Shown here one piece after another: positions 41,904-42,114 of a stretch of 64,000 nt of DNA. Every line of letters begins with the position of its first letter. Position 1 is the stretch's first letter. The position numbers and the translations under genes are program-made. The notes below the pieces were generated by a model that made no database searches, was not told the DNA's origin, and saw only the letters and a program-made list of their open reading frames with translations. This stretch comes from Mycoplasma zalophi (GTDB lineage Bacteria; Bacillota_I; Bacilli_A; Mycoplasmatales; Metamycoplasmataceae). The DNA lies in contig NZ_JAOOPZ010000002.1 of assembly GCF_025486335.1 (NCBI RefSeq), positions 124,001 to 188,000 on the forward strand. Reading direction: 5' to 3'.

Positions 41904-42114
41904 GATTACTCTCCTTTGTTTCGTTATTTCATTTATACGTGTTACCGTCTTTTGTTTTTAGTTCACCATTATTTGAAGAAGCTACTTTAACCGTTCCTAT
42001 TATGTTTCCGATTGTCCCAAATGCTAACGGTAATATAGCACTTAAAAAACCAATAAAACTTCCACCTTCTAATTCAATTGCTTTATCATATTCCATTTCT
42101 TTAAAATTATCCAT
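41878..42114 (-). CDS. double-glycine-leader peptide (bacteriocin-like)
   Basis: A 78-residue peptide. Residues 1-18 look like a class II bacteriocin/C39-peptidase leader: MDNFKEMEYDKAIELEGG has the canonical 18-residue length, Phe at -15, hydrophobic residues at -12 and -4, and Gly-Gly at -2/-1. The predicted 60-residue mature part starts with a Gly/Ile/Leu/Phe-rich membrane-active segment (SFIGFLSAILPLAFGTIGNI) and ends with a hydrophilic tail containing Trp (TGA) and YYYF. It overlaps the coiled-coil gene by eight bases (ATGGATAA) and the ArdC-like gene by 26. No C39-domain exporter is visible in this window. A plain small membrane protein remains possible. Confidence 0.6.

Follow-up and report, generated by a model that had tools for sequence, protein, structure and literature searches.

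A short open reading frame with a double-glycine leader in a wall-less bacterium raises the question of what its product does: is it a class II bacteriocin, as a sequence-only reading of the locus had proposed, or does it serve its host in another way? The gene lies in a 64,000-nucleotide window of Mycoplasma zalophi, the whole stretch of DNA that was analyzed, and occupies positions 41878..42114 of the minus strand, where it encodes a precursor of 78 amino acids (genetic code 4, TGA read as Trp) recognized as an open reading frame and through homologues in the genus and family. The minus strand at 42061-42114 reads MDNFKEMEYDKAIELEGG, then SFIGFLSAILPLAFGTIG. The same interval (42061..42114, minus strand) encodes a leader of 18 residues, and the earlier claim that it follows the leader rule (Phe at -15, hydrophobic residues at -12 and -4, Gly-Gly at the end) was borne out: F-15, M-12, L-4, G-2 and G-1 are all read, the pattern is conserved in homologues, and a single-sequence model predicts a helix at residues 4-14. 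The predicted mature peptide of 60 residues (41881..42060, minus strand), with a cleavage point inferred from the leader and from the presence of a C39 partner, starts with SFIG and would have an average mass of 6606.4 and a monoisotopic mass of 6602.4 if unmodified. It comprises a hydrophobic segment (residues 19-46; 41977..42060, minus strand) with a predicted helix at 20-46, the conserved motif GELKTKDGNTYKW (residues 50-62; 41929..41967, minus strand), placed by alignment and structure model and predicted to form a beta hairpin, and an aromatic C-terminus, YYYF (41881..41892, minus strand), whose counterparts in relatives are YFIY, YYYY and HYCI. The single-sequence structure model has a mean pLDDT of 65, which corresponds to low to moderate confidence.

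The leader is rare in its own genome and widespread among relatives. Over 124 kb of DNA from this genome there are 159 ORFs of 40-130 aa that begin with ATG, and a loose filter (GG, GA or AG in place, hydrophobic residues at -4 and -12) lets 2 of them through, namely this one and a Phe-rich frame. A chance origin of the leader is excluded by conservation, since none of the 24 genus members is without a homologue; 22 of these have GG and 2 have AG. Residues G18, E51, K53, K61, W62 and Y76 are invariant among these homologues, four of them (E51, K53, K61 and W62) within GELKTKDGNTYKW. The dN/dS ratio of the whole ORF is 0.09-0.18 (0.18 against G023, 0.10 against G013), a sign of purifying selection which indicates that the ORF is a real gene. 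For the mature part the ratio is 0.06-0.20 and for the leader 0.45 where measurable; in the wider comparison the mature part evolves more slowly than the leader.

Searches with a profile built from the 24 genus members found homologues in 127 of 135 genomes of the family, spanning 13 of its 14 genera. Among the 81 family homologues that were aligned for leader statistics, the residue pair at -2/-1 is GG in 49, PG in 14, AG in 5, GA in 4 and VG in 4, with five single cases, so that GG, AG or GA occurs in 58; the residue at -4 is hydrophobic in 84% and that at -12 in 89%, and position -15 is occupied by F or L in 65. The finding that was named beforehand as a refutation, homologues that keep the hydrophobic segment but not GG, came up only in part: the glycine pair holds across the genus and gives way within genus g11, a Mycoplasmopsis-like group which we take to be Mycoplasmopsis itself (including M. 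agalactiae PG2). There, 10 of the 34 members read have GG, 2 have AG and 22 have neither GG, GA nor AG, and in one clade PG, VG or TG replaces GG. Divergent relatives with a GG leader occur in other families of the order Mycoplasmatales: at E-values up to 0.5, peptide matches were found in 48 of 60 f2 genomes and 56 of 95 f3 genomes, the homology among families f1, f2 and f3 resting on weak profile scores together with a common architecture. Searching the contigs of named genomes with our peptide returned no relative; a second scan of named genomes gave a single match, a Williamsoniiplasma lucivorax peptide 99% identical to that of G588. Eight further weak matches (L264, L269, L270, L272, L311, L353, L355 and L358) were rejected on inspection as large proteins.

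The surroundings of the gene vary by lineage. In the window, the ORF upstream ends just inside the beginning of the peptide gene, stop and start codon sharing bases (ATGGATAA), an arrangement suggestive of translational coupling. That ORF (42107..44035, minus strand) encodes a 642-residue coiled-coil protein with an N-terminal hydrophobic segment, extends 8 bases into the start of the peptide gene and is probably translationally coupled to it. Directly downstream, and overlapping, is an ORF with an ArdC N-terminal domain (41034..41903, minus strand; PF08401, 2.4e-10), a domain usually found on mobile elements. These two genes flank the peptide gene, overlapping or nearly touching it on both sides, only in a subclade of five genomes that includes the one in the window. 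Elsewhere rplU/rpmA are its direct neighbors or close by (in g2, g5, g8, g10, g11 and g12, of which g5 is presumably Mesomycoplasma, including M. hyopneumoniae J), and in most of g1, presumably Metamycoplasma (including M. hominis PG21), it stands between ileS/lspA and rpmE. Such surroundings are those expected of a core gene passed on by vertical descent.

The sequence-only reading had also anticipated an ABC exporter with a C39 peptidase somewhere in the genome, and exactly one intact example was found. It is a protein of 676 aa, encoded on another contig, with Peptidase_C39 (Pfam, 1e-23), ABC_membrane and ABC_tran domains, the C39 domain taking up about residues 1-150, and it belongs to the Mbov_0121 family (NCBIfam NF045998, 1.1e-187). 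By sequence, its nearest solved exporters are ABC-type bacteriocin transporters and ComA. A C39 domain is present in all 24 genomes of the genus, in 133 of 135 in the family (124 of 124 when counted over good genomes; a single copy in nearly all) and in 218 of 248 in the order, and the catalytic Cys/His/Asp triad is kept in each of the 78 C39 domains read. Of the loci that were legible through the whole exporter and past its 3' end, almost all have a protein of 118-140 aa with one N-terminal membrane helix directly after the exporter, usually overlapping it; in the f2 loci L329, L330 and L334 a ybeY-like gene takes its place. The downstream proteins of several relatives match the MAG1140 family (NF045999), and that of our own genome falls short of it. 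The names of the two models, NF045998 and NF045999, carry no substrate assignment. In four loci, L037 (G010), L043 (G021), L117 (G057) and L207 (G099), the exporter frame is broken by a stop or frameshift in a genome whose peptide gene is intact, for which real decay, phase variation and assembly error are all possible causes.

Although the peptide and exporter genes are unlinked, several observations tie one to the other. In f2, the peptide was found in about 45 of 50 C39-positive genomes and in 2 of 10 C39-negative ones, with a Fisher p of 2e-5 that is uncorrected for kinship and includes weak, unverified matches. No recognizable GG peptide turned up in the genomes of f33 (ten) and g211 (three) that are without C39, and the C39-bearing genomes of f28, f29, f30 and f32 do have one. 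The Spiroplasma-like genome G386 (L356), which is without C39, has kept the peptide, in which GV stands in place of GG, and G329, which has C39, carries GG in an otherwise nearly identical peptide. One genome, G584, runs counter to this, with a GG peptide and no C39 match. In the g11 clade with PG, VG or TG, the exporter is altered as well: the residue after the catalytic Cys changes from G to S, A or T and that after the His from Y or F to M, L or I. When mapped onto a tree built from the ABC part, the two changes amount to roughly one event, for which reason the uncorrected p of 7e-15 for their linkage is overstated, and we regard this linked change as suggestive only of a tie between peptide and exporter.

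Together these data point to the peptide as a substrate of the C39 exporter, processed and exported by it, a reading to which we give a probability of about 0.8. Against it count the separate locations of the two genes, the 22 of 34 g11 homologues that have none of GG, GA and AG, the case of G584 and the broken exporter frames in genomes with an intact peptide gene. What the sequences show is a leader, an exporter, a tendency of peptide and exporter to occur in the same genomes, and changes that are linked between the two; cleavage and export we infer from these. Under this model, the 18-residue leader would be recognized by the organism's single C39 peptidase-ABC exporter of the Mbov_0121 family, the C39 domain would cut after GG in the cytosol, and what leaves the cell would be a product of 60 residues that combines a single hydrophobic helix with a GE(I/L)K..KW turn and ends in an aromatic tail. 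A likely accessory is the small membrane protein, MAG1140-like, whose gene lies 3' of that of the exporter.

On what the exported peptide might do, G511 (580,076 bp), which we take to be M. genitalium G37, is informative. Its peptide gene has the genes at 265597-266043 on one side and mraZ on the other, which is the position of MG220, and the product matches the MPN313 family (NF045747; 5.4e-41, 138.9 bits). NF045747 also matches several members of our family weakly (best genus member E 0.0085); the peptide of the window is not among the matches and falls below the model's cut-off of 100 bits. The two families share a GG leader, of about 15 residues in MPN313, followed by a hydrophobic segment, but MPN313 is without the GE(I/L)K..KW motif. 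The C39 gene of G511, at 491534-493516, agrees with the position given for MG_390 (PMC5745988). The order of exporter, small membrane protein, ybeY and era is common to G511 and our own genome, and the exporters of the two families are orthologous by this shared order.

In G511, a motif TG(T/G)CA(T/C)TTTT-N13/14-ATTWATA stands upstream of MG220, MG390 and recA (loci L344, L345 and L346), with the -35-like half each time some 45-50 bases away from the start codon. A relaxed form, TGNCAYTTT-N12-16-WTTWATA, has three sites in the G511 genome, exactly those of MG220, MG390 and recA, and its reversed control has none; the three-way match was reached in 0 of 400 Markov simulations. As these three sites had also supplied the pattern, the test speaks to its specificity rather than its independence. 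No such promoter is in view at the peptide gene of our own genome, since that gene overlaps the one upstream. The rrlA and rrlB products are reportedly described in a 2018 abstract as small proteins in a feed-forward loop, with horizontal DNA transfer also reported. A 2022 review (PMC9262362) names RrlA, as mg220, an accessory protein of sigma20, and the identity of RrlA with mg220 rests on this source; it further holds that sigma20 activation and recombination need rrlA and rrlB, and that recA is driven by sigma20. The motif common to MG220, recA and MG390 is possibly the sigma20 promoter. A search with PF04542 gave no sigma20 match even in G511, so that the absence of a match in our own genome is uninformative on sigma20.

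Because sigma20 and recombination are linked to MG220, the M. genitalium counterpart reported to be RrlA, our leading but tentative guess at function is that of a secreted core peptide, with a signaling or regulatory role that resembles the ComC/ComA system of streptococci. That system likewise pairs a GG-leader peptide with a C39-ABC exporter, ComA chains are among the matches of our exporter with E-values of about 1e-29, and the M. genitalium peptide is tied to a sigma factor and recA (PMC9262362). There are also differences: the streptococcal peptide has about 17 residues compared with 60 here, our peptide is hydrophobic and unlinked to its exporter, and the likeness is one of peptide and exporter. 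Extended further, and at this breadth more doubtful, the analogy would have the Mycoplasmatales inherit a single secreted-peptide system, made up of the GG peptide, the C39 exporter and the accessory protein, as a signal, passed between cells or sensed by the producer itself, that switches recombination and DNA exchange, a wall-less counterpart of ComC/ComA.

The strongest competitor to a signal, itself somewhat unlikely, is a peptide with a structural or surface role in the wall-less envelope, exported and held by its inserted helix rather than released to diffuse. A length of 60 residues, a transmembrane-like predicted helix, strict conservation across the family and a conserved aromatic C-terminus would all suit such a role, but regulation rather than a constant structure is suggested by the promoter that the peptide gene and recA have in common in G511, and by the part that RrlA is reported to play with sigma20.

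The class II bacteriocin of the sequence-only reading, which would kill competitors after export through C39, fits the leader type and the hydrophobic, Gly-rich mature part, and 7 of the 24 genus members weakly match PF10439 (Bacteriocin_IIc; best E 0.00088). PF10439 and the class IIb model TIGR03949 do describe a similar leader and a Gly-rich hydrophobic mature N-terminus, but scores are under their cut-offs; the PF10439 match examined reached 18.6 bits against a curated cut-off of 27.1, mainly over the leader, and the peptide of the window itself does not match PF10439. A single-copy core gene is hard to reconcile with this function, since all close relatives would have the same weapon; its mature part is under purifying selection, and its neighbors, which vary by lineage (ribosomal, ileS/lspA and other housekeeping genes), include no conserved gene fit for an immunity partner. 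The bacteriocin function is therefore unlikely, and the peptide is probably a core secreted, perhaps signaling, peptide instead. Less likely again is an ordinary small membrane protein in which GG is an uncut helix break: the hydrophobic segment, the clade without GG and the listing of RrlA (mg220) as transmembrane in the review's table (PMC9262362) would agree with it, but the leader-rule positions are kept over 81 homologues, and the peptide tracks C39 in its occurrence and has lost GG in G386, where C39 is missing. Very improbable is a mycoplasma C39 exporter devoted to other work such as lipoate transamidation, with the peptide unrelated, which was put forward on the grounds that no GG peptide was known (PMC6609329); a conserved GG peptide is now a candidate in most of the C39-bearing lineages examined, and in G511 peptide and exporter have a promoter motif in common.

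That proposal came from the 2019 study of the minimal cell, which found no GG peptide in JCVI-syn3A, cited Dirix 2004 for the same absence from other mycoplasmas, and assigned a lipoate role to gene 0401 instead (PMC6609329). Within the open-license literature searched, this statement that none was known is the sole instance in which mycoplasmas and GG peptides are brought together. Among the f2-type GG peptides the M. mycoides member could not be singled out, and for the syn3A exporter itself a substrate of this kind would be an extrapolation. The exporter is kept in almost all mycoplasmas examined and in JCVI-syn3A, and a conserved candidate substrate makes its function directly testable; this peptide family is the best candidate for that substrate. 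If the link to MG220 and RrlA is true, it would also hint at the switch behind antigenic variation and gene transfer under sigma20, and at a use of peptide signaling by mycoplasmas. Outside the order, short GG peptides are also carried at L093 (G465) and L097 (G444), with the sequences ...GGGIKFKWD and ...LPGGFKFTWDWW, which suggests a wider family in the class.
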